Translations under genes and position numbers: made by a program
The notes under the pieces: generated by a model
Database searches by the model: none
Seen by the model: only the letters and a program-made list of their open reading frames with translations
What the model was told of the DNA's origin: nothing
Part shown: one piece after another, positions 1-51,137 of the stretch
Position numbering within the stretch: position 1 is the first letter of the stretch
How the letters are laid out: each line of letters opens with the position of its first letter
From: Chloropicon primus
Taxonomy: Eukaryota > Chlorophyta > Chloropicophyceae > Chloropicales > Chloropicaceae
Reading direction: 5' to 3'
Assembly: GCA_023205875.1 (NCBI GenBank)
Contig: CP060767.1
Span: 525,409 to 589,408 of the forward strand
DNA length: 64,000 nucleotides

Positions 1-728
1 ACGGGCGTCAAACCTGCGCCGTTTGCCCTGTCCTTGTCCGCACCGGACTCGAGAAGCATGCGCAAGCACTCGACTTGGTTCTCCGCAGCCGCATAAATAA
101 TGGGTGTGGTGCCGTCCACGTTCGCAATGTCCGGCGACGCTCCGACGTCAAGCAGAAAACGCAAGCATTCGATATGGCCGCCGCGGACGCAGAATTGCAG
201 AGGGGTCATGTCACCACTCTCCAAGAGAGAGTCCTTTTCGGCACCGTAAGCGACGAGCAAACGAAGACACTCGACGTGGCCCCTCTCCGCAGCTTCGTGA
301 ATAGGGGATAAACCGTCAATTTGGACGTTCGGATCAGCGCCATGTTCAAGAAGAATTCGAAGACAGTTGGGGTGATCGTTGATGACAGCCCTCAGAACAA
401 GCGTCCACTCATCGTCCCCATCGAGACCGGAGTCGAGCTCAATATTACCGAACTTCAACAGCACACGAAGGCAGTCGTAGCTGCAACGGTCCACGCTTTC
501 GTGGGCGGCTTCCAACGCATACGAGACGCCAACCTTGACCATCTTCTCAAGATGGTCGGGCATGTCAAACATTGCCAAAATGCGTAAGGACGAATCCCAT
601 CCGCCTATGTATGTGCGTGAGCGGGCATCAAATGAGGGTGAGAGAGCGAGTGCGACCCATTCCTCAAGCAACTCACGAATAACACGCCCCCTCCAGGGCT
701 TCCAAACACCAGAAGAGGGGGGTGTCAT
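1..728 (-). CDS. Ankyrin-repeat protein, partial (runs off left edge)
   Basis: The minus strand is open from an ATG at 728 to the window edge. From about 480 downward it encodes consecutive ankyrin repeats: visible cores are TPLQFCVRGGHIECLRFLL and TTPIIYAAAENQVECLRMLL, each followed by a GA(D/S)-type turn. The first part (728 to about 480) has a Trp-rich stretch without clear repeats and begins MTPPSSGVWKPW. A second possible start is Met at 572 (MFDMPDHLEK). A GTGAGT donor at 676 and a TAG acceptor at 605 would define a 72-bp intron that is also open in frame, so both spliced and unspliced forms are possible. The ATG overlaps the stop of the upstream nuclease-repeat ORF (ATGA, 725-728). Ankyrin repeats mediate protein binding. 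The specific role is unknown. Confidence 0.7.
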   Translation of the reverse strand, partial: MTPPSSGVWKPWRGRVIRELLEEWVALALSPSFDARSRTYIGGWDSSLRILAMFDMPDHLEKMVKVGVSYALEAAHESVDRCSYDCLRVLLKFGNIELDSGLDGDDEWTLVLRAVINDHPNCLRILLEHGADPNVQIDGLSPIHEAAERGHVECLRLLVAYGAEKDSLLESGDMTPLQFCVRGGHIECLRFLLDVGASPDIANVDGTTPIIYAAAENQVECLRMLLESGADKDRANGAGLTP

Positions 729-3700
729 GCATCAATCATGGCAATCATGGCCTCGTGTTTCCTTTTCTTGTTCCGCAGCGAAACAAGCAGCTGGTGCGCT
801 GCGCCCTCGTCGCTGCACGCCTTCAGCTTGGCGGCGAGCGTGCCGATCATGTTCATCAACTTCGCGTTCTCCTTGTTTAACACGGTCCGCAACTCTTTGA
901 CGGGATCCAATCCCAGGACCGACAGAGCGTCCCCGCATGCGACTACCGCGTCCACAAACCCAGGCTTCAACATGCGCGACGCGAAGGCGTTCGAACCCGC
1001 TATCAGCACGCCGCCTTTGCCGACCATCTGCTCGAGCTCTTCAAGCACGGCGTAAAGTGCCTCGGGATCGTCGAACTTCGCCGCAACGCTATTGCAAACA
1101 AAGGTCTGGAGATTCTTGATACCGAAGCGCGTCCTCAGCGTGTCGAGCACGGCGTAGAGCGCGTCGGGATCGTCGAACTTCGCCGCAACGCTATTGCAAA
1201 CAAAGGTCTGGAGATTCTTGATACCGAAGCGCGTCCTCAGCGTGTCGAGCACGGCGTAGAGCGCGTCGGGATCGTCGAACTTCGCCGCAACGCTGTTATT
1301 CACAAAGGTGATACCGAAGCGCGTCCTCAAAGTGTCCAGCACGGCGTAGAGCGCTGCGGGATCGTCAAACCTCGCCGCAACGCCTCCTGAAACAAAGGTT
1401 TGGAGACTCTTGATGCCGAAGCGCGTCCTCAAAGTGTCGAGCACGGCGTAGAGCGCGTCGGGATCGTCAAACCTCGCCGCAACGCCTCCTGAAACAAAGG
1501 TTTGGAGACTCTTGATGCCAAAGCGCGTCCTCAAAGTGTCCAGCACGGCGTAGAGCGCTGCGGGATCGTCAAACCTCGCCGCAACGCTGTCTGAAACAAA
1601 GGTCTGGAGACTCTTGATGCCGAAGCGCGTCCTCAAAGTATCGAGCACGGCGTAGAGCGCTGCGGGATCGTCAAACCTCGCCGCAACGCTGTCTGAAACA
1701 AAGGTCTGGAGACTCTTGATGCCGAAGCGTGTCCTCAAAGTGTCGAGCACGGCGTAGAGTGCCTCGGGATCGTCAAACCTCGCCGCAACGCCACCACAAA
1801 CGAAGGTCTGGAGACTCTTGATACCGAAGCGCGTCCTCAAAGTGTCGAGCACGGCGTAGAGCGCGTCGGGATCGTCAAACTTCGCCGCAACGCCATCACA
1901 AACGAAGGTCTGGAGACTCTTGATACCGAAGCGCGTCCTCAAAGTGTCGAGCACGGCGTAGAGCGCGTCGGGATCGTCAAACTTTGCCGCAACGCCACCA
2001 CAAACGAAGGTCTGGAGACTCTTGATACCGAAGCGCGTCCTCAGCGTGTCGAGCACGGCGTAGAGCGCGTCGGGATCGTCAAACTTTGCCGCAACGCCAC
2101 CACAAACGAAGGTCTGGAGACTCTTGATACCGAAGCGCGTCCTCAGCGTGTCGAGCACGGCGTAGAGCGCGTCGGGATCGTCAGACCTCGCCGCAACGCC
2201 ACCACAAACGAAGGTCTGGAGACTCTTGATACCGAAGCGCGTCCTCAGCGTGTCGAGCACGGCGTAGAGCGCGTCGGGATCGTCAAACCTCGCCGCAACG
2301 CCACCACAAACGAAGGTCTGGAGACTCTTGATACCGAAGCGCGTCCTCAGCGTGTTGAGCACGGCGTAGAGCGCTGCGGGATCGTCAAACTTCGCCGCAA
2401 CGCTGTCTGAAACAAAGGTCTGGAGACTCTTGATGCCGAAGCGTGTCCTCAAAGTGTCGAGCACGGCGTAGAGTGCCTCGGGATCGTCAAACCTCGCCGC
2501 AACGCCACCACAAACGAAGGTCTGGAGACTCTTGATGCCGAAGCGCGTCCTCAGCGTGTCGAGCACGGCGTAGAGCGCGTCGGGATCGTCAAACTTCGCC
2601 GCAACGCCTCCTGAAACAAAGGTTTGGAGACTCTTGATGCCGAAGCGCGTCCTCAAAGTGTCGAGCACGGCGTAGAGCGCTGCGGGATCGTCAAACCTCG
2701 CCGCAACGCTGTCTGAAACAAAGGTTTGGAGACTCTTGATGCCGAAGCGTGTCCTCAAAGTGTCGAGCACGGCGTAGAGTCGTCGCCGCAACGCCTCCTG
2801 AAACAAAGGTTTGGAGACTCTTGATGCCGAAGCGCGTCCTCAAAGTGTCGAGCACGGCGTAGAGCGCTGCGGGATCGTCAAACCTCGCCGCAACGCTGTC
2901 TGAAACAAAGGTTTGGAGACTCTTGATGCCGAAGCGTGTCCTCAAAGTGTCGAGCACGGCGTAGAGTGCCTCGGGATCGTCAAACCTCGCCGCAACGCTG
3001 TCTGAAACAAAGGTTTGGAGACTCTTGATGCCGAAGCGCGTCCTCAAAGTGCTGCGGGATCGTCAAACCTCGCCGCAACGCTGTCTGAAACAAAGGTTTG
3101 GAGACTCTTGATGCCGAAGCGCGTCCTCAAAGTGTCGAGCACGGCGTAGAGCGCGTCGGGATCGTCAAACCTCGCCGCAACGCTGTCTGAAACAAAGGTC
3201 TGGAGACTCTTGATGCCGAAGCGCGTCTTGAGCGCCGTGAGGATGTCAAAGAGTTTCTCCGGATCGTCGAACTTTGCAGCGACGCCGCCGCAGACAAACG
3301 TGCCCAAGTTGGTTATGCCGAACTTGGGATCTTGCAACCCTTTGATGCTTTTCTCGAAGGCTCCCGTCAGGACACGCGAAGGCACTCCGGGGGTGGCCAT
3401 GAGCTTTCGCGCCAGGTCGAGATCACCACCCACGAGCGTCGCGACGCGCTGCTCGGCGGCTTCAAACTCCTTGCTCATGCGCGCCCACACGTCCGCGGCG
3501 GCATCGTTGGCGGCGGCGTTGTCATGGTTGCTGCTCGGGCACGCCTTGGTCGCTGCAGCACCGCCTTGATGGATGCGCTGCGCGACGGCGGTCACAGCAG
3601 CTGACGCGGCAACGTTCGGTAATTGCGACTCGGTGACGACGACGAGCACGTTGTCCCCCACTGCGAAAGCTGCTCGAAGTGTGCGGCGCCCACGCGCAAG

Positions 3701-4044
3701 CGGACCACGAACGCGTCAGGGAACATTTCGCGGAGCTTGGTCGTCTTGCGTTGGTCGCGTCCCACGTCGGAGTCGCCGTGCGTGAAGCCCGGGTCGTACT
3801 CGAACAGCACTTCCGTGCCATTCGTGAGCTTGAAGAACGCATCGGTGTTGTGGTGGGTCTTGCCTTCCGTCAGGTGCTTCGCGAGCGAGCGCCCGGTCAC
3901 GCCCTGCTCAAGCAAGCCGTTCTCAAACAACAGCTGCGCCACATGCGCGACGTGACGTGTCTCGGCCTTGGACGCGCCGATCGGAGACGGCACGTCGTAG
4001 TCGTCGACACGGCGGCGTTTGCTCGGCGGCGCGTCCGACGCCAT
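725..4044 (-). pseudogene. Vsr-like nuclease plus 23-unit 34-residue repeat array, frame-disrupted
   Basis: Reading on the minus strand from ATG 4044: residues 1-20 hold a basic NLS-like cluster (PPSKRRRVDDY). Residues about 60-125 look like a Vsr/PD-(D/E)XK endonuclease core (HHNTD, then VLFEYDPGFTHG, then D97-xx-K100 and VVRLRVGA). A linker follows, then 23 repeats of 34 residues with unit FGIKSLQTFV-xxx-VAA and FDDPDALYAVLDTL. The C-terminal cap (1040-725) is helical and Lys-rich. Variation sits mainly at unit residues 11-13 (SDS, CGG, SGG, CDG, CNS, NNS). The reading frame is broken three times: a C-run at 3655-3659 one base short, a 19-bp deletion at 3050 and a net 17-bp deletion near 2780. 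The two deletions total 36 bp, so the frame is the same on both sides of the pair. This could be real decay or assembly error. A GTAAAA donor near 4147 and a CTGCAG acceptor near 4098 suggest an upstream intron. Confidence 0.7.
1040..3325 (-). repeat. 102-bp coding tandem repeat array (23 units)
   Basis: Twenty-three head-to-tail units of 102 bp encode the 34-residue repeat. Units are nearly identical at the DNA level, which implies recent amplification or gene conversion. The first unit (NLG and EKLFDIL variants) and the last three (NS class, KNLQ) are the most diverged. Unit 21 lacks 12 bp in frame, losing KSLQ. Units 3 and 6 carry the frame-breaking deletions. Confidence 0.9.
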
Positions 4045-18028: not shown

Positions 18029-19348
18029 TTACTTGCCCATGAAACCTTTGAAAGTATCCTTGATGGATTTGGTGAAGTTCTTCTGCTGACCCTTCTTCTC
18101 CTTGTTCAGGGTCGTATTGAAGGTCTTTTTAATCGTCCCCATCACCATGTCAGTCATGCCGGTCACCGCGTTCTTTACGGTTCTCATGGTTCCCGCGCTG
18201 CCACCGTCCCACTTGACGACCTTTTCCGCCGCCTTCTTCAGACTCTCGTCCCAATCCTTCTTGTCCTCCGAAGTCTCAAACTTGAAGATGTGGATCTTGT
18301 CCCCTGTCCTGCCCCCAGGGCCTTCTTTGATGTAGGTGCAGAGCTTCTGGGCATCCTTCGGGATGGCTTCCTTCGCCTTGCCCTTGATCATGGACTGAGC
18401 CTTGAGGTTCGCACCTTTGAGGATGAGAGCCTTTGGTTCGTCTCCCTCCTTCGGACCGTCGGTTCCTTCGGCTTCCGAATACTTCAGGACATAACCCAAT
18501 TCCTGGTCCAGGCACAACACGACCCACCTCTCTCTGAACGCCTTGGTCACGTCACCGCGTTTCTTCAACAAGCCTTCCTTGAACAAGGGGACGTCGTCCT
18601 CCGCAGGTTGCACCTCACCCGAAGACACCTCGACGGCTTCATCATACGTTGGTGGTGGTTGTGACTCCTCGGTTTCCTCCTCCTCATGCTTTTCTTCCTC
18701 TTTTTCTTCTTGTGCTTGACAACAGCCCTGTTGCTGTTCCTCTTGCTCGTTGGCTTGCGGCGGGGCCCCCTGCAAACTCAATCCTGAAAGTAGGCCGCCC
18801 ACCTTGGCTGCGTCCTTCTCGGCCTTCTCCTTGGCTTTCTGCGCATCCAAGGCCGCCTTCTGGGCCGCCTTCTCTGCGTCCTTCTCGGCCTTCAGCCTGG
18901 CTTTCTCAGCGTCCTTTTCTGCTTTTAGCCTGGCCTTCTCGGCATCTTTCTCAGCCTTTTCCCTCTCCTTCTCCGCATCCAAGGCCGCCTTCTGGGCCGC
19001 CTTCTCTGCGTCCTTCTCGGCCTTCAGCCTGGCTTTCTCAGCGTCCTTTTCTGCTTTTAGCCTGGCCTTCTCGGCATCTTTCTCAGCCTTTTCCCTCTCC
19101 TTCTCCGCCTTCTTCTCCGCCATCAGCTTGGCTTTCTCTTCCTTTTTCCTCTCCATTTCAGCACGCTTGGCTGCTTGCTCCTCTTCGTACTGCCTCTGCT
19201 GCTCTGCCACCAACCTCTCTTTGGCCTCCTGCTCAGCTTTCTCAAGCTTCTCCATGAATCCTTCGCAGAATCCTTCCACCAGGCCTGCCTGCTTCATCCA
19301 GTCGGCCACTGGCCTTGGATCAGGCACTGATACTCCTGGCTCGTCCAT
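18029..19348 (-). CDS. Coiled-coil protein with C-terminal PH domain
   Basis: A single exon of 439 residues. Residues about 30-190 form a long charged coiled coil of KAEKDAEKA repeats with a 44-residue block present twice. A Gln/Glu-rich linker contains PPPTYDEAV, a PPxY motif that can bind WW domains. Residues about 255-385 look like a pleckstrin-homology domain (LFKEGLLKKRGDVTKAFRER then WVVLCLD, ending HIFKFETSEDKKDWDESL). The basic C-terminal tail is KKTFNTTLNKEKK and FKGFMGK. A membrane-associated scaffold is likely. The orthologue is unknown. Confidence 0.8.
   Translation of the reverse strand: MDEPGVSVPDPRPVADWMKQAGLVEGFCEGFMEKLEKAEQEAKERLVAEQQRQYEEEQAAKRAEMERKKEEKAKLMAEKKAEKEREKAEKDAEKARLKAEKDAEKARLKAEKDAEKAAQKAALDAEKEREKAEKDAEKARLKAEKDAEKARLKAEKDAEKAAQKAALDAQKAKEKAEKDAAKVGGLLSGLSLQGAPPQANEQEEQQQGCCQAQEEKEEEKHEEEETEESQPPPTYDEAVEVSSGEVQPAEDDVPLFKEGLLKKRGDVTKAFRERWVVLCLDQELGYVLKYSEAEGTDGPKEGDEPKALILKGANLKAQSMIKGKAKEAIPKDAQKLCTYIKEGPGGRTGDKIHIFKFETSEDKKDWDESLKKAAEKVVKWDGGSAGTMRTVKNAVTGMTDMVMGTIKKTFNTTLNKEKKGQQKNFTKSIKDTFKGFMGK
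18790..19130 (-). repeat. Internal coding duplication, 132 bp twice
   Basis: The coiled-coil block KEREKAEKDAEKARLK to QKAALDAE is present twice in tandem with almost identical DNA, a recent in-frame duplication inside the PH-domain gene. Confidence 0.8.
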
Positions 19349-26566: not shown

Positions 26567-28436
26567 CCCTCCGCCGTTTCTTCCAAGGAAGGAGTCGTTC
26601 GAAAAAAAATGAGATTATGCGTGTGATGATGATCACGCCGCCATCTTCTTCTTCTTCCCTCCTCTCCCTTCCCTCTCTCTCTCTCTCTCTCCACGACACG
26701 ACACGACGAGGCCGAGGTCCTGGAGATTTTGGATAACGCTGCAGAAGAGAGAGAGAGAGAGAGAGAGAGAAGGATCGCATCGCGAGGAGGGGTGAGAGGG
26801 GTGTGGAGGGGAGGTTATCAGGCGGAAGGATCGTCTCTTCCTCTTTCGAATGAGCATCCTCTCGTGTGTGACTCCACCTGACATTGGGGTTGGCTTCATC
26901 GATCCTAAACTGCAGCACAGACAATGAAGAGGATGGATTGTCACAGGGATAAAAGACTCGAGTAATCTCCTTCTCCTTCTCCTGTTGATGATGAGGTGAT
27001 GGTCTCCTCGTTTGGAAAGCAAAGAGTGTCCACCACCAGCACGAACTTGGTCTCCTTGAGCTGTGCTCCATCAAGGCCTCGGTCCAGAGGAAGGATCCTT
27101 CCTTCCTAGTGACGCCATCCTGAGTCAGAATTCCTGACTGCCTTTTGTGACGCCCAAACGGCCATTGGCTGGTGGATCGTTCCAACTGCAAGCCGCCGGA
27201 CAACCCCAAGAGAACCCAGGACGGTGATGCTGCTGCTGCTGGTGACGATCGTGATGGTGATGGGTGACGATGCTCGTGCTGGCGATGGATGGCCGCGGGC
27301 CCTCTCGAGGACGAGGACAAGGATGAGTTGGCAGTGTCAAGGGCAAGTGATGCTGGTGTTTGTGGTCGTGAGCTTGCTTGGTGGTGGTGGTGGTGGTGAT
27401 GATGGTGATGGTGATGGTGATGGTGATGGTGATGATGATGGGTGACGATGCTCGTGCTGGCGATGGATGGCCGCGGGCCCTCTCCTCTCCTCTCTCGAGG
27501 ACGAGGACAAGGACAAGGATGAGTTGGCAGTGTCAAGGGCAAGTGATGCTGGTGTTTGTGGTCGTGAGCTTGCTTGGTGGTGGTGGTGGTGATGATGATG
27601 GTGATGGTGATGGTGATGGTGATGGTGATGGTGATGATGATGGGTGACGATGCTCGTGCTGGCGATGGATGGCGGGCCCTCTCCTCTCCTCTCTCGAGGA
27701 CGAGGACAAGGACAAGGATGAGTTGGCAAGGGCAAGGGCAAGGGCAAGGGTTAAACTCAGATTCTGCAGTGTCAAGTGAATATTTGCATTCACCTATTAA
27801 GTGCTAACAGACAAAAGAAAAACAGAATATTTCGAACAGAATCCAATTCAACCGATGAGCCTCTTGCGCGTCCACAGGTTCCTTCCTCAAGGTACCTCAA
27901 GGGTTTAGGGTTTATGGATGGATGCTTAGAGCCACACGAATCGGTCATCACATTGTGCTCACTCGCTTGACTGGACCTCTTTGCTCGACTCAAGTGCCTC
28001 TTTGTTTTTAGGTAGCTTACTGGTATATTCACCTCTACCCTTTGTCCCCCTTTGTCCCCCTCTCCTCCTCTCCTCCTTGGAGTCCGTGAGGTTTGCGGCC
28101 AAGCAACACGAGAACGAGGGTGAGAGACACCAAGGGAAGGAGACGGAGACACACGGGAACAGCCCTAGTGTTGCCTTGACTCGACTCGCTTGCTCCACTC
28201 TTCATTGTAGTATTCTCTCTCATCTGGTGGGTGCCAAGGTTGAGTCTTGGTTCAAGGGAAGGAGTCCTAGAAGGTAAGAGGGACGACACCGTTGTGCTCC
28301 ATTGGTTTCTCTTCACTCGGTTTCTCACCGGCTCGCTCACTGACTTAACTTGGCCATCTCTGTCTCAGTGAGGACGACTTTCAAGGATGGTGAAGTGAAA
28401 GGGTTCTGGTAGGACGGAAGGAGGGTACTCTGGAGC
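26567..28436. other. 1.9-kb gap with minisatellite, no confident gene
   Basis: It contains a GAGAGA run (26751-26770), an array of trinucleotide-rich repeats (27215-27750), and the probable 5' region of the following kinase. Plus-strand frames such as that from 27981 lack family features. Confidence 0.5.
27215..27750. repeat. Minisatellite, three copies of a unit of about 180-200 bp
   Basis: Each copy has GGGTGACGATGCTCGTGCTG, then GCGATGGATGG, CTCTCGAGGACGAGGACAAG, GATGAGTTGGCA and a (GGTGAT)n tail. Copies start near 27265, 27440 and 27643 and differ in the length of the GGTGAT run and of the CTCTCCTCTC block. The last copy ends in (AAGGGC)n near 27728-27749. Confidence 0.85.
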
Positions 28437-41895: not shown

Positions 41896-42794
41896 CGGCT
41901 TAACGCTTAACGTTTTTATGGTAGAACTCTCTTCTTTCATCGATAGGATAGGATAGGATAGATCCAAGAGATCCCTCCAAAAGGTCCCTTCCTTTTCCTT
42001 CGTCCCCCTCTCCTGTCCTGGGACAAAGACCAGAGTCAAGGGGATCCTATCTCTATCTCTTTTCTCTCGTAATTCCTCCCCTCCTGTGTTGACCACACAC
42101 CAAGGGATTACCACTCTAGCTCGTCTCGGTCTCGTCGTCACAGAGAGAGGAAGAGAAAGAATCCAACGTCCTCCACACACACTCCTCCACTTTTCGTTAC
42201 AAGACATTCACGTCAACCTGGGGGGCCTACATGGGACCAAAGGTCTTGGGACGAAAAGGAGAAACCGAGGAAAGGAAACCAAAGGAAATATCTCTTTCGT
42301 TTCCAGACGTTCGCACCAATCTGGGGTAACAACGTGGGACCAAAGGTCTTGGGACGAAAACGCGAAACCGGAAGGAAACGAAAGGAAATGTCTCTTTCGT
42401 TTCCAGACGTTCGCGCCAATGTGGGGTAACAACGTGGGACCAAAGGTCTTGGGACGAAAACGCACATGACAGAGAGGCGAGACCTTGGAGCCCCAAGAGG
42501 CGAGAGACCCTGGAGCTGGAGCAAGCACAGGAGCATCATCCCATCCCATCACAAGCCCCCTCCCCTCAGGATGGTCCATGGTTACCTGAGGTGAGGGACC
42601 TGAAGCTTTTCACTTTTCGTACCGACCTTGGGTCCAACAAAGGGAAGCCTTCAAGGGAAAGGGAAGGAGTCCTTGGGTTGTTTGTGTTTGTTTGTGTGTG
42701 TGCGTGTGTTCCGCCATGGAGACCAGCAGGAAGTAGGGGAGTGGGAGACCGCAAGCGTTTGAGGTGGTTGTGTACCGCCGCCTTTCGGTCCGCC
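41896..42794. other. Intergenic with triplicated minisatellite
   Basis: A GGATA repeat (41944-41959) follows the condensin stop. The repeat at 42226-42465 fills much of the rest. The region 42591-42794 is open in frame with the following pseudokinase but has a GTTTGT simple run and is probably 5' UTR. Confidence 0.6.
42226..42465. repeat. Triplicated unit of about 100 bp
   Basis: Three copies contain ACCAAAGGTCTTGGGACGAA (42236, 42337, 42438), preceded by GGGGTAACAACGTGGG in copies 2 and 3 and by TCTTTCGTTTCCAGACGTTC. The period is about 101 bp. Confidence 0.9.
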
Positions 42795-45239: not shown

Positions 45240-48200
45240 ATGGCGGACAACGGGAGGGACGCGATGGAAGCCTTCGGGACGCCGGAGAAGGAGGCGGTGG
45301 GTATTGCACAGGAGGGGTGGAAGGAGACAACCCCAGCAGGAGCAGGGTTGTCCAAGGGGGAGGGGGGGGAGCTCGCCAAGGCCGCACAGGCAGCGAGGTT
45401 GCGTGAGACGGGTGCTCTGGGCTTCGTGGGAGTGGAAGGCATGGGGTCCGTCATCGAGGCTGTCCAGAGGACCTTCAACACGTTGGTATCCACCACCGCC
45501 TCTCAGCAAGACAAGCAAGGTGTGCAGAGCTCCTTGGGAGCAGAGGACGGGCACAAACTCGCGGAGGAGTTGAGGAAGGACGAGGTGGTGAAGCAGTTGC
45601 TGAACGAGCCGGCCAGGATGCGAGAGTCGGACGGCAAGTACGACACCCTTGCAACAGTTCTGGAAGATGTCGCGTCTTTTGGCTCCGGGGAGTCTTCCTT
45701 GGGACAAAAGCAGGTTTTGGAGGTGGAAGACGTCTACAACTTGTTTGGCTTGGGAGGGCCTGACCTCGACCCCTACCAATCCACGTCCACGTTTCTCACC
45801 GCGGAGGACAGCGAAGTGAGGGAAAAGATCTTGCAGGAGCACCTGTGCGAAGAGAGCGCAGGGGAGGTGGGCCAGCTGGTCTACTTTGGGGGTCTCGGGA
45901 AGTCTCACCTGGGCAGGAGCTTGCGAGCGCAGTGGCAGGACATGCTGGCTTCTTCGGGCGAGCAGCCGGAGGGGGAGGAAGGCAAGAAGGGCGGGACAAG
46001 CCTCAGGAGCAAGGTGGAGACTGAAATCGGAACGGATTGCATCCGAAACGACCTTTACTTGCTCAACGCGAACACTTTGCAAGGCAGCAGGCCAACGATG
46101 AACGGTCTGAGCCTTTCCAGCGTGAACCACTCGGTGGGTTTGCAGAACATCGCCGTTCCCCTTCACGCGGTCTCGGAGGACGTCGAGAGCGCAAGGTATC
46201 TCGATGCCTCGGCGGCGGCGGCCTCCGGCTTCGTGGACTTGTCCCACCTCAAGGGGATGGCCCCCACGGAGTTCGACCAGCAGGGGTCGAACTTGTCCTG
46301 CGCGCAGGCTCTGGCTGCGCTGAATGCCTGCATAACCCTCGACCCCAACGCAAGCGACGCCTCCATAAACAGGTCGGTGATCAGCGCGGCGCTCCACAAG
46401 TTCTTGCCCAACACGGAGAGGGAGAGGATACTGGAAGATTCCGTGACCCTGTCCGCTTCGGGTCAAGGTGCTTGCTCGACAAACGTGGACCAGACGGTGG
46501 ACGCCAAAGTCCTCAGGAACGAGCTGATCAAGTCCTCAGACGTCTTGCAACTTCTGCAGGAAAGAAGGGAAGCCTGTAACTTGGACTCGTATCCCCTGAA
46601 CGACTTGAGGGAGATCAAGATCACCATCTCGGAGATCACCTTGAACAGGGAGACCTCGTTCAAGAAGGTCTGGTTCGAGACTTGCCTTATGGACAGCCAG
46701 GAGGACTTCAAGAGCATCTCTTCCTCCGTCAGAATCAGTGGAGCCAGCGGGGCGCACAAGACGGAGTCCTTGGACATCGCATACAACCTCTGCGAGGGAT
46801 CGGGAAGCATCTACAGGTCGTGTCAGAAGATCCTGGAGGGTGAGGTGAGGGACGTCCTTTTGCTGAAGGTTCTGGCCAAGGAAAAGTCGGGGGAGCAAGA
46901 CGGGGTCTGGGTGGGAACGTGTGAGCTCAAGCTCTCCGGAAAATCAGAGCAGCAGATTCAGAAGCTGAGCATCATGCCAGCATCGGACGGGGCCACCATT
47001 GGCAGCCTCCGAGTCAGGGTAGAAGCCAACGCTGCCCTGGCCTGCGTCAAGACTTTCGATGACAACTGCGTCCCCTCGTACAAGCTCTATATCTACGGCG
47101 GCCTCCAAAGGAAGCAGAAAGGCAGCCAGCTGGTACCGTCCAACCGAATTCAGGTGTACGAGGCGGCCACCAACGACCTCGCCACGGGCAAGCCTAGCGG
47201 CTCCCTTCCTCCTCCGACCTCCTGCCACGCGTCCCTCGTCATGGGCGAGATCATGCTGGTCCACGGAGGTCTGGGAAGCAAGGGCAAGGTGGAAGGCCAG
47301 CTTCATGCCCTTCATATGCCAACGATGACCTGGGTGCAGCTTGGCAACGACGACAACGAGAGTGCGCCCGGTGCGAGGTTCGATCACACCGCCACCACGC
47401 TGAGGAATGGGAATGGGCAGGACCACCTGTCTTGCTTTGACGTAGTCTTCTTCGGGGGAGAGAAGGAGAAGGGGTCCCTCTCCAACTCCCTTTCGATTTT
47501 GGAGGTCTCCAACACAAGGCAGGCGGCCCCAAGCGAGGGCCCAGGATCCTTCTCTTATGATTGGAAGATGGCAACGGTGTCCGGAAGCATTCCGCAGCCC
47601 AGGGCCGGCCACGCCAGCGCATCGGTTTCCGTCCAGGGACGGGAAGCCTTGTACGTCTTTGGAGGCAGGATGACAGGCGAGTCAGGGAGCGGCACAAAGT
47701 TGTCCAACGAGATGCTCTGCGGGGTGTTGACCACGGTTGCCGACAAGAAGAACTTCGAGTGGCAGGAAGTTGCAGTCGAGGGGGGCAGCCCTTCGCCGAG
47801 GGAGAAGTGCACCTTGCACGCCATCGGCACGAAGCTTTTGATGTCTCACGGCTGGATCGGAGAGGGCCAGGTGCCGTGGATGAACGACCTTTGGCTCTTT
47901 GACACGAGCACCAGGGTGTGGAAGAGGATCATGCTGGAGAACGCCGCCCAGTTCCCCACTTCGAGGTACGGCATCGGGTCCATGATCCGGTACCACCGGG
48001 AGACGGAAGCGAGCTTGGACTTGTACGCCTGCAACGCCGACGGGACCTTGTCCAAGTGCAACGACGGCGCGGAGGGCTCCCTGCAGGGCGTGGAGATCGA
48101 CGTTGGGTCCACGCAGAGGTTCCTCCTGCAGTCCCTTGACGCAAAGGGGAGACCTTGCAACAAGCCAGGGAAGCCTTACATGGTTCTCGTGGCCAGAAAG

Positions 48201-51137
48201 ATGCCCAACGGATCCAAGGTCACCATGAGCTACCCACAAGTGAAGAAGCTTCCACAGGACACCTCGATGTTTGCTTTCGAATTCACGTCCGTGGTTGCCG
48301 GTGACTACGACGTGGAAGTGTTCACCAGCTGCAAGGACTCCCCAGCTCTGTCCGTGACCGTGAGAGTCAAGGCCGGCGAAGCTTGGCCGGATTGCTTTGT
48401 GGTTTCGGGCCCAGCAACGATCAGCTGCGTTGCTGGCGAGACTGCCCTTCTCTCCATCGCGCTGCACGACAAGTATGGTAACTCTATCGGAGACCTCACG
48501 GACGACCACGTCAGCGGCCTCAAGGCGCTCTTGAAGTACAAGAGGGAGAGCTCCACGAAGGTCTCGATCGAGAAGGGGGAGGGCAACCGAGTGAAGGCTT
48601 CCTTCGTGTTGCAGGAGAGGGGGAACTACAATGTGAACATCTTTTACAAGGGAACCATGGCTACTTCGATGGATGTCAAGTGCCTGGCCGGAGGCATTTC
48701 CCTTCCGAAGACGCACTTGGATCCAGCCTCCGTGAAGAACAAGAAGCTCCTGTGCGGCGTGGAGTGCAAGTTCAGCGTTGTCCTCTGCGACAAGAGCGGG
48801 ATCAAGATACGCGCGCAGGACTTGCAGGGAAGTGAATCGATGCTGAAAGCCTTTGCCGAGGAGTACGGGGAGGACCAAAAGGGAGGGAGTCACGTGAACG
48901 ACTGCGCCGCTTCGGTGAACAAGGACGGGACCCTGGGCTTCACCTTCACCCCGACCCGGTCCGGCGAGTGCGTGATCAACGTGCACTACTACACGACGGA
49001 GTACAAGCCTCGGGCGATCGAGGGGTGTCCCTTCGTCCTCAAGGTGTCCTCCTCGGAGATTGATCCCCAAAAGTGCAAGCTCGTGGAGAAACCTCCGCCC
49101 GCCATTGTGGCCGGCGAAGTGTGCACCTTGCTGGTTCAGGCCAAGGACAAGTACGGGAACAACGTGTCGACGAGCCACGAGGAGGTTCGCTGCAGGGTAG
49201 AGACGGCTGCTTCCAAGAGGACCTGCAAGAAAATCGACGCCATCAACAAGGAGGACGGCACGTACGAGATCAAGCTCCAGCTGACGGATGTTGGGTCGTA
49301 CACGCTTCATTTCGACATGAAGAAGGAGGGGCAGTACAAAGCGATTGGTGGCTCGCCTTCCAAGATCAAAGTGGGCGCGGCGCACCTCAGCCCGAGGCAC
49401 TGCACTGCTTACGGCATGGGAATCCAAGGCACCACTCCTGCTGGTGAGACGACCTCCTTCGTCGTGGTGTCCAGAGATCCGTTTGGCAACAAGATCTCGA
49501 CCTCTGGGTCCAGCTTGGAGGTTAGGGTCCAGAGCGGGGTGAGCGTCCCCTCCAGCATCGTGGACAATGGCGATGGCACCTACACTTGCTCCTACATCGC
49601 CGGCAACGAGGAGCACTTTCATGGCAGGACGGTGTACTCGGTCGCGGTCAAAGTCAACGGAGTGGAGCTGGAGGAGTCCCCGTTCTTCCAGAGGGTCTAC
49701 CCTCCCCAGACTTCGGCCTACAACACCACCGCGGTAGGCGTGCCCCCGAGGATGAACTCCGGCGAGAGCTTGGAGTTCATCATCCAAGCCAGGGACGTGG
49801 AGGGCAGGGAATCCGTGCACGGCATGGACCCCTTCATCCTGAACGTCGAGCTGGAGGAGAAGCAAGTGGGCAAGAAGGAAAAGCCCTCCCTGACCGGGGA
49901 GATCAAGGACCTCCACAACGGCAAGTACCTGGTGAAGCTGTTCGCGGAGGAGAACTTGTACGCGATTGCATCCGTGGGCATCATGCTCGGGACCCTGGCG
50001 GACCCGGTGCAGGAGCACATCAAGGATTCCCCTTTCGAGCTCATGATCACGCCCAAGGGTCTGTTCGGGATGGGCCTCTGGGGCGCAAAGCCATCCGCTT
50101 CCTCGGCCAGCGTGGACGAGTCCCTTGCCAATGCCTTCATGCTCTCCGGGAGGGGCCTGAGGGAGTGCGTGGCCGGCGAGGAGGCCGAGTTCGACCTGAC
50201 CCCGGTGCAGGGGGAGTCCCTTGCCCTGTCCAAGACCATCAAGGCGACCTCCATCGACAGCGGCCTCTTCACCGTGGAGCTGCGGGGTCCGCAGTTCATC
50301 ACGGGACAGGTCGACGGCCCGACCAAGGATGGGCACTTTCGTGCCCGTTACCGACCGTTTGTCGCGGGAGCCTACGTCTTGGTGGTGAAGATCGGGCGAT
50401 TTGTCCTCCAGCAGTGCCCTTTCTCGGTCAAGTGCACCCCCGACGTCACCTGCGCGGAGACGTGCGAGATCGACGACTTTGGCCTGTACAACAAGAAGGC
50501 CGGGGACGACCTCAAGCTGAAGATCATCACCCTGGACGCGCAGAGGAACAAGAACTACTCGGATGAGGAGAGCTTCCACGTGATCTGTCGTGGAGGCAGT
50601 ATTCAAGGCAAGGGAAGGATGGCCAAGTTCAAGAAGCACGTCATGGAAGCGGACTCGAAACCTTTGGGGGATGGCATCCACCAAGTCGTCTTCAAGGTCC
50701 CTCTCGAGGGGGCTTACAGTGTCATCGTGTTGCACACCGATAGGCAGACGGGCGCAAGGAACGAGCTTGAGGCCTCTCCCGTGCCGTTCACCTGTGCCAA
50801 ATCCGACAGGGATCCCAACAACGAGGACGGGGGTCCAAACGCCGCTGCGGTGTCCATGAAGAACCTGATGCAGAAAGCCATGGTGGACTCGGGCACCGAC
50901 GAGGAGAGAAGGCCAAACTTCATGGAGCGCAGGCTGAAGAAGATCTTGGGGGACAAGGACATCGAGCCCGAGGACCACATTCTGAAGCAGGACAAGCCTC
51001 AGCCCATGTTCTCGGCCGGGTTGTGGCACAAGCCGAATTACTGGGAGAAAATCGGCATCTACACCGTTGGAACTCCGCTGAGGAGAGTGCAGTACGAGGT
51101 CATGGAGATGCACAAGAAGGGGCTGAGGAAGGACTAG
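45240..51137 (+). CDS. C2-like / kelch / filamin-repeat protein (1965 aa)
   Basis: One uninterrupted 5.9-kb frame. Residues about 1-450 are unassigned. About 455-600 is a beta-rich, C2-like module (LREIKITISEITL to VWVGTCELKLSG). About 610-890 has kelch repeats (KLYIYGGLQ, EIMLVHGGLGS, ALYVFGGRM, NDLWLFDTSTRVWKRI). From about 950 to 1850 there are six to eight filamin/ABP280 Ig repeats, recognised by KDKYGNNVS, GDGTYTCSY, GDYDVEVF and similar turns. The C-terminal tail has PEDHILKQDKP and ends LRRVQYEVMEMHKKG. There is no signal peptide, actin-binding CH domain or TM. A cytoskeletal or flagellar scaffold is likely. The exact family is unknown. Confidence 0.85.
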   Translation: MADNGRDAMEAFGTPEKEAVGIAQEGWKETTPAGAGLSKGEGGELAKAAQAARLRETGALGFVGVEGMGSVIEAVQRTFNTLVSTTASQQDKQGVQSSLGAEDGHKLAEELRKDEVVKQLLNEPARMRESDGKYDTLATVLEDVASFGSGESSLGQKQVLEVEDVYNLFGLGGPDLDPYQSTSTFLTAEDSEVREKILQEHLCEESAGEVGQLVYFGGLGKSHLGRSLRAQWQDMLASSGEQPEGEEGKKGGTSLRSKVETEIGTDCIRNDLYLLNANTLQGSRPTMNGLSLSSVNHSVGLQNIAVPLHAVSEDVESARYLDASAAAASGFVDLSHLKGMAPTEFDQQGSNLSCAQALAALNACITLDPNASDASINRSVISAALHKFLPNTERERILEDSVTLSASGQGACSTNVDQTVDAKVLRNELIKSSDVLQLLQERREACNLDSYPLNDLREIKITISEITLNRETSFKKVWFETCLMDSQEDFKSISSSVRISGASGAHKTESLDIAYNLCEGSGSIYRSCQKILEGEVRDVLLLKVLAKEKSGEQDGVWVGTCELKLSGKSEQQIQKLSIMPASDGATIGSLRVRVEANAALACVKTFDDNCVPSYKLYIYGGLQRKQKGSQLVPSNRIQVYEAATNDLATGKPSGSLPPPTSCHASLVMGEIMLVHGGLGSKGKVEGQLHALHMPTMTWVQLGNDDNESAPGARFDHTATTLRNGNGQDHLSCFDVVFFGGEKEKGSLSNSLSILEVSNTRQAAPSEGPGSFSYDWKMATVSGSIPQPRAGHASASVSVQGREALYVFGGRMTGESGSGTKLSNEMLCGVLTTVADKKNFEWQEVAVEGGSPSPREKCTLHAIGTKLLMSHGWIGEGQVPWMNDLWLFDTSTRVWKRIMLENAAQFPTSRYGIGSMIRYHRETEASLDLYACNADGTLSKCNDGAEGSLQGVEIDVGSTQRFLLQSLDAKGRPCNKPGKPYMVLVARKMPNGSKVTMSYPQVKKLPQDTSMFAFEFTSVVAGDYDVEVFTSCKDSPALSVTVRVKAGEAWPDCFVVSGPATISCVAGETALLSIALHDKYGNSIGDLTDDHVSGLKALLKYKRESSTKVSIEKGEGNRVKASFVLQERGNYNVNIFYKGTMATSMDVKCLAGGISLPKTHLDPASVKNKKLLCGVECKFSVVLCDKSGIKIRAQDLQGSESMLKAFAEEYGEDQKGGSHVNDCAASVNKDGTLGFTFTPTRSGECVINVHYYTTEYKPRAIEGCPFVLKVSSSEIDPQKCKLVEKPPPAIVAGEVCTLLVQAKDKYGNNVSTSHEEVRCRVETAASKRTCKKIDAINKEDGTYEIKLQLTDVGSYTLHFDMKKEGQYKAIGGSPSKIKVGAAHLSPRHCTAYGMGIQGTTPAGETTSFVVVSRDPFGNKISTSGSSLEVRVQSGVSVPSSIVDNGDGTYTCSYIAGNEEHFHGRTVYSVAVKVNGVELEESPFFQRVYPPQTSAYNTTAVGVPPRMNSGESLEFIIQARDVEGRESVHGMDPFILNVELEEKQVGKKEKPSLTGEIKDLHNGKYLVKLFAEENLYAIASVGIMLGTLADPVQEHIKDSPFELMITPKGLFGMGLWGAKPSASSASVDESLANAFMLSGRGLRECVAGEEAEFDLTPVQGESLALSKTIKATSIDSGLFTVELRGPQFITGQVDGPTKDGHFRARYRPFVAGAYVLVVKIGRFVLQQCPFSVKCTPDVTCAETCEIDDFGLYNKKAGDDLKLKIITLDAQRNKNYSDEESFHVICRGGSIQGKGRMAKFKKHVMEADSKPLGDGIHQVVFKVPLEGAYSVIVLHTDRQTGARNELEASPVPFTCAKSDRDPNNEDGGPNAAAVSMKNLMQKAMVDSGTDEERRPNFMERRLKKILGDKDIEPEDHILKQDKPQPMFSAGLWHKPNYWEKIGIYTVGTPLRRVQYEVMEMHKKGLRKD

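Follow-up and report, generated by a model that had tools for sequence, protein, structure and literature searches.

Whether a natural protein can join its own nuclease to an array of repeats that vary like the repeat variable di-residue (RVD) units of transcription activator-like (TAL) effectors is the question raised by a gene of the minute marine green alga Chloropicon primus (strain RCC138), whose genome comprises 17,584,162 bases in 20 contigs. The gene lies in a stretch of 64,000 nucleotides at the end of contig C14 (CP060767.1, positions 525,409 to 589,408), hereafter called the window, where a CTR1/EDR1-type kinase and a GEX2-type domain among the other genes are in keeping with a green alga. 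We know of no natural protein that joins an RVD-like reader array to a nuclease. The nuclease-repeat protein encoded here appears to represent a previously undescribed family. According to sequence comparisons, we give a little under an even chance to its being a eukaryotic, probably nuclear, modular sequence-reading nuclease with no detectable homology to TAL effectors (TALEs).

Architecture of the gene and its family

The gene occupies a single minus-strand locus of the window, with start and stop codons where the initial annotation had placed them (Table 1). The nuclear localization signal (NLS)-like cluster (PPSKRRRVDD, near the N-terminus) and every residue named as part of the nuclease motif (D68, E82-x-D84, H89, D97, K100 and R115-x-R117) were likewise present, and a recount of residues 12-13 in the 23 repeat units of this copy returned the same tally (GG 11, DS 8, NS 3 and DG 1). 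The units are not all of exactly 34 residues, as had been claimed: 19 of the 22 unit-to-unit steps are 102 nt, the other three measure 83, 85 and 90 nt, a single unit is 30 residues long, and the array starts and ends with a diverged cap. Nor does the locus encode one continuous protein, because its frame is broken in three places (Table 1). The available part of PMC12301720 describes the RCC138 assembly as nanopore-based with short-read polishing, and the breaks may therefore represent a real pseudogene or an assembly error within a repeat. Some of the array differences between copies could likewise be assembly errors.

Two further copies are open throughout. The copy on contig C9 (P0001) encodes 1016 aa with 20 units, including caps and the 30-residue unit, and that on contig C15 encodes 1084 aa with 22 units counted in the same way. 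Among the best-scoring candidates, no paralogue was found beyond these three loci, apart from one match on C10 with an E-value of 0.65.

At least 14 distinct relatives (P0002-P0015) were recovered from EukProt, JGI and ENA, the three database searches returning 7, 13 and 6 matches; more may exist, because each search scored only about 8000 candidates. P0002 (EukProt) is 91% identical to the C. primus protein, and the remaining relatives share 31-54% identity with the query or with the first row of the alignment. Aligned members share the same order of parts, namely N-terminal nuclease, middle region, repeats and C-terminal cap, with the sequences of P0002 and P0003 cut at one end. The nuclease motif occurs in 14 of 15 members, the exception being P0014. 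Apart from the 30-residue unit of C. primus, repeat steps are 34 or 35 residues, and open copies hold 2-22 units. In the gene model of P0002, a flavin amine-oxidase domain is joined upstream of the nuclease-repeat protein, which is either a prediction error or a real fusion.

Searches of Pfam, NCBIfam and PHROGs gave no credible match. Pfam matches far over the cut-off on the array (DUF4113, YAcAr, PBP1_XylR and others) were judged to be summed short partial matches over identical repeats, and HTH_16, HSR and BpsA_C in relatives were set aside as the same artefact. In PDB, the nuclease profile had no sequence match, and the repeat profile and P0005 had only insignificant ones; up to an E-value of 10, the repeat profile matched 7 sequences, including a ribosomal protein and SF3B1 (best E-value 0.38), which we take to be a HEAT-repeat protein. 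A viral or prokaryotic origin was rejected, as no relative was seen in viral or prokaryote contigs by a short peptide pattern search, nor in phages, at the sensitivity used. The plasmid collection gave one match only (20.7% identical, E-value 0.1).

New DNA-binding repeat proteins (STAR, MOON and pTERF) are described in the available part of PMC11417379, and a screen for TALE-like arrays in that of PMC5472282. The string LQTF is absent from the main texts of both, whose repeat units stand in figures. Six unit strings had no occurrence in the literature searched by text, and the titles and abstract beginnings covered by our literature search described neither this family nor an RVD-like array joined to a nuclease.

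The N-terminal domain is probably a Vsr/DUF559-like nuclease, as judged from motif residues that are invariant in distant relatives and from a weak profile match to Vsr. In an alignment of 8 rows (A5), chosen from the 14 motif-bearing members without near-duplicates and sharing as little as 34% identity with the first row, T67-D68, E82-x-D84, H89, R96-D97, K100-T101 and R115-x-R117 are invariant. The hhalign alignment places P-D, E/F-x-H/D-x-x-F/Y-x-H and R-D of E. coli Vsr and phage Vsr-like proteins at matching places. D68, D84, H89 and D97 follow the order of D51, H64, H69 and D97 of E. coli Vsr, which we take to be its catalytic residues, with D84 at the place of H64; this register was set by eye and by hhalign. 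Vsr, phage Vsr-like proteins and DUF559 thus share with the algal domain the order D ... E-x-[D/H]-x-x-[F/Y]-x-H ... R-D ... V-x-R, whereas the algal domain has a shorter H-to-D spacing, a weak profile match only, and a repeat array fused to it. With a trimmed A5, hhalign against 18 Vsr and phage Vsr-like proteins gave a score of 20.74, an E-value of 0.0067 and a probability of 5.7%, which is weak. This set excluded L095, L098 and L099 (near-duplicates of L096), L101-L107 (partial matches) and L110 (motif not found). As a separate observation, Mycobacterium phages (L096 and L098-L100) carry an open reading frame (ORF) with zinc-finger-like and Vsr-like nuclease parts near a DNA methylase; in phage Malithi, the annotated gene at the Vsr-like ORF lies on the opposite strand.

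Variation within and between the repeat arrays

Variability was measured as pairwise differences between the units of one array at each of the 34 positions. Five arrays were used (P0002 with 4 units, P0003 with 6, P0004 with 5, P0005 with 9 and P0011 with 6; caps removed except in P0004). Excluded were C. primus, in which the variable spot was first seen, sequences closely related to P0004, and P0014 and P0015, whose arrays are short. Position 12 ranked 1, 2, 1, 1 and 2 in these arrays, respectively, with ties counted as best (positions 10 and 19 in P0003, 26 in P0004 and 20 in P0011). When each array was rotated at random, the rank sum of position 12 was reached in 0 of 100,000 trials and that of positions 11-13 together in 5 of 100,000, to be read with the caveat that the arrays, being homologous and in the case of P0002 closely related to C. 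primus, are not independent. The clearest single case is given by the consecutive units 2-5 of P0002, in which 32 of 34 residues are identical and only residues 12-13 differ, being NS, GG, DS and DG. At position 22, where C. primus units have A, D or E, each of these four units has P, as expected from unit homogenisation.

The repertoire at the variable spot is narrow. In 106 units, taken from two of the C. primus copies and from the 14 relatives (16 sequences, with near-identical members counted repeatedly; the window copy and 30-residue units excluded), only eight pairs occur at residues 12-13, namely GG (38), DS (19), NS (18), DG (17), NG (7), SG (4), PG (2) and HG (1), and four of them make up 92 units. 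Position 13 is only G or S, and residue 11 is C in 67 units, S in 32 and another residue in 7. Residues 12-13 of the last unit are NS in C. primus, in the ENA group and in P0011 (P0001, P0004 and P0011), not in P0003, P0005, P0014 or P0015.

Outside a few positions, the repeat scaffold is strongly conserved. We compared 54 full internal units of the three C. primus copies (17 of 20 on C9, 19 of 22 on C15 and 18 of 23 in the window; caps, 30-residue units and two broken units excluded), which comprise 25 DNA versions and 14 protein versions. Outside positions 11, 12, 13, 17 and 22, the proportion of nonsynonymous differences (pN) is 0.0048 and that of synonymous differences (pS) 0.168, a pN/pS of about 0.03. 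By contrast, pN reaches 0.247 at positions 11-13, 50-fold above the scaffold, with a local pS of 0.55, and 0.260 at positions 17 and 22. The scaffold is thus under strong constraint, and variation at five positions is either tolerated or driven; as the units share a recombination history, these pairwise figures are descriptive.

The arrays of the three copies differ in unit number and order, in sharp contrast to their surroundings. C9 and C15 are identical over 720 of 720 nt of the N-terminal part, and C9 and C14 over 380 of 380 nt up to a G run that is 1 base shorter in C14 (these 380 nt being the extent of the base-by-base comparison of that part). From the gene end into the neighbouring ankyrin ORF, identity is complete over 600 of 600 nt (C9-C15) and 1100 of 1100 nt (C9-C14), as it is upstream of the gene over 965 of 965 nt (C9-C14). 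All stretches compared outside the array therefore differ by a single base, the one in the C14 G run. Because the arrays differ despite so little flanking change, repeat units have probably been gained, lost and swapped, with recombination as the presumed cause. The block shared with C15 extends from 19 bp upstream of the ATG into the ankyrin ORF, and a script found no target-site duplication there. Inspected by eye, the two sides of the C14 block carry the same 4 bases and those of the C9 block the same 3, a match that could arise by chance.

A candidate sequence-reading nuclease and its alternatives

How might such a protein work? If it is a modular sequence-reading nuclease, each 34- or 35-residue unit would be the same small helical module, with helices assigned from a reading of the unit and a crude propensity profile. 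Residues 11-13, chiefly 12-13, would be presented to nucleic acid, most likely DNA; the order of the units would spell a target, to which the N-terminal Vsr-like nuclease would be recruited and where it may cleave. Recombination between units would remodel the arrays and leave the remainder of the gene unaltered. The NLS-like cluster at residues 7-14 suggests a nuclear location, and the biological role may be that of a selfish element or of a defence against invading DNA. In favour of this reading we count the ranks of position 12, the four P0002 units, the restriction to eight dipeptides, the low pN/pS of the scaffold, the identical flanks with differing arrays, the invariant motif and the NLS-like cluster. 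A more specific version, which we regard as rather unlikely, is a natural programmable nuclease, shared by the alga and the relatives, in which repeats with no detectable TALE homology have evolved convergently so that residues 12-13 of each repeat read one nucleotide (with GG, DS, NS and DG as the main letters), coupled to a Vsr-type nuclease of its own, and whose targets are rewritten by inter-repeat recombination. Should the array read DNA or RNA, it would supply a second code, evolved independently of that of TALEs, for comparison and application, and algal genomes would have a new agent of conflict or mobility. An array that is not a reader would still offer a well-defined system in which to ask what a short variable spot recognises, as almost everything else in its units is kept alike.

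Several results weigh against a sequence-reading nuclease. As for the nuclease, hhalign of the full A5 against 11 Vsr proteins gave an E-value of 0.13 and a probability of 0.5%, and with a slightly different trim of A5 against the same proteins 6 of 60 column shuffles scored as well; in the 18-sequence comparison, 2 of 200 shuffles did so, with the best shuffle at 26.2 and the reversed profile at 11.6. HMMER assigned no nuclease family to the domain (Pfam, NCBIfam, PHROGs and PDB), and the DUF559 model had no match in the C. primus genome, the three gene copies included. As for the repeats, the expectation that residues 12-13 would be the most variable held for position 12 in the five arrays only. 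Position 12 is unremarkable in the short arrays P0010 and P0014, position 11 ranks 3, 1, 10, 7 and 4 and position 13 ranks 2, 10, 10, 11 and 9 in P0002, P0003, P0004, P0005 and P0011, respectively, and in C. primus the variation at positions 17 and 22 equals that at 11-13 (positions 22, 13, 11, 12 and 17 all show pairwise differences near 0.5). The pN/pS at positions 11-13 is below 1, so it is no proof of positive selection, and G, D, N and S are residues that an ordinary inter-helix turn also tolerates. Relatives with 2-5 units (P0004, P0006-P0010, P0012, P0013 and P0015) would read very little. Furthermore, a search of the alga's own genome for a 20-mer that would correspond to the C15 array if each unit stood for one letter, made in one reading direction with simple repeats skipped and GG and DS assumed to be different bases (the antiparallel direction counted only as a control), gave 87 candidates, of which 0 fitted and none had the seven GG positions alike. 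A missing own-genome target is expected for a nuclease that spares its host, and equally for a wrong code.

Known repeat systems resemble the algal protein in part. TAL effectors, TALE-like proteins (RipTAL, BurrH, MOrTL and STAR) and engineered TALE nucleases (TALENs) have long arrays of 34-residue units with variability at 12-13, and their unit order differs between copies, whereas the algal protein has an extra DDP turn, a natural N-terminal nuclease-like domain, and mostly GG, DS, NS and DG at 12-13. As in TALEs, the tandem units fall within 33-35 residues, and hypervariability at 12-13 is found at position 12 in the five arrays, not in P0010 or P0014. Membership among TALEs by sequence was rejected, since no TAL model stands among the Pfam matches listed and no TALE among the 7 PDB sequences up to an E-value of 10. 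The mTERF and pTERF proteins (PMC11417379, available part) have helical nucleic-acid-binding units of similar size, and three helices per unit may be present here too. They differ in that no mTERF model is among the Pfam matches of the algal protein, and in that pTERF comes from bacterial genomes with no nuclease domain mentioned in that part of the source. OPR-RAP proteins, PPR nucleases and PUF proteins are modular readers as well, some of them joined to nuclease-like domains. Their unit length and motif differ from those of the algal repeat, and the nuclease-like domain of the algal protein is N-terminal. The initial annotation had judged the units not obviously homologous to TALE repeats, which agrees with our finding no sequence relation to TALE, PUF, PPR or mTERF. 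Its inference of a modular reader tethering a nuclease is supported in part, by the hot spot at position 12 in five arrays and by the invariant motif, with the profile match to Vsr being weak.

One alternative is that the array is a protein-binding helical scaffold of the HEAT or ankyrin kind, in which residues 11-13 are an exposed turn tolerant of small residues and the nuclease acts on a substrate delivered by a partner. The variable letters are indeed mostly turn formers (G, D, N and S), positions 17 and 22 vary too, the only PDB matches of the repeat profile are the insignificant ones to SF3B1 and the ribosomal protein, and an ankyrin ORF directly follows the gene. Nevertheless, a tolerant turn hardly explains four consecutive P0002 units that are alike except for four different pairs at 12-13, nor the recurrence of the same hot spot in five arrays, and we consider a scaffold unlikely, if worth serious attention.

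Modular RNA readers fused to nuclease-like domains occur in algae and plants, and the protein could be an RNA processing or stability factor akin to OPR-RAP or PPR nucleases, whose repeats read RNA that the Vsr-like domain trims. Members with few units would then suffice if the RNA were also held elsewhere. We regard this as improbable, given that no PPR, mTERF, PUF or RAP model is among the Pfam matches (OPR itself may have no model), that by eye the N-terminus resembles an NLS more than a transit peptide, and that array turnover with almost no change elsewhere would be odd for an organelle maturation factor.

A role within the sequence-reading nuclease, rather than another mechanism, is that of a selfish homing-type endonuclease whose array chooses the site and which spreads by gap repair at cut sites. 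The near-identity of three copies on three contigs in the compared stretches, the limits of the C15 copy with its missing target-site duplication, and the existence of phage Vsr-type nucleases beside methylases would fit such an element. Segmental duplication would look alike, however, and no empty site or target was seen, so that a homing role appears doubtful at best. That the gene is a drifting minisatellite in a dead gene is barely credible, the three breaks of the window copy standing against two open copies, the pN/pS of the scaffold and an architecture kept in relatives at 31-54% identity.

Coordinates and neighbouring features of the window

Table 1. Parts of the nuclease-repeat gene and duplicated segments, in window coordinates.
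Feature	Position	Strand	Remarks
Nuclease-repeat gene copy, broken by 3 frame breaks	725..4044	-	ATG at 4044, stop at 725
NLS-like basic cluster PSKRRRVD, residues 7-14	4003..4026	-	Recognised by eye
Probable Vsr/DUF559-like nuclease domain, about residues 30-125	3670..3957	-	D68 (codon 3843-3841), E82-x-D84, H89, R96-D97, K100, R115-x-R117
Frame break 1	3655..3661	-	G run 1 base shorter than on C9 and C15
Middle region between nuclease and array	3323..3660	-	
Array of 23 repeat units	1025..3322	-	First cap 3322-3221, 30-aa unit from 1318, last cap 1126-1025
Frame break 2	3044..3060	-	Unit at 3118: step of 83 nt instead of 102
Frame break 3	2780..2790	-	Unit at 2831: step of 85 nt instead of 102
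Conserved C-terminal cap (AFASRML...NKENAKLMN)	725..1024	-	
Downstream ankyrin ORF, running on past the window edge	3..728	-	ATG overlaps the nuclease stop
Segment duplicated on C9	1..4957		Runs about 308 bp left of the window; converted by hand
Portion of the duplicated segment also on C15	355..4063		Converted by hand

The overlap between the nuclease stop and the ankyrin ATG takes the form ATGA (725-728), an operon-like arrangement that is unusual for a nuclear gene. Matches to the ankyrin ORF at an E-value of 1e-20 or below were confined to the three loci of the nuclease-repeat gene (C14, C9 and C15), the one on C15 being cut short.

Elsewhere in the window, a 1965-aa ORF (45240-51137) has kelch, filamin and GEX2-type domains and is presumably gamete-adhesion-like, in an alga described as mostly diploid. 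A PH-domain protein contains an internal K-E-A-rich repeat of 11/33 residues (18808-19138), which probably accounts for the strong AT skew at 18-20 kb. Two more tandem repeats lie at 27306-27742 (period 196) and 42232-42463 (period 100).

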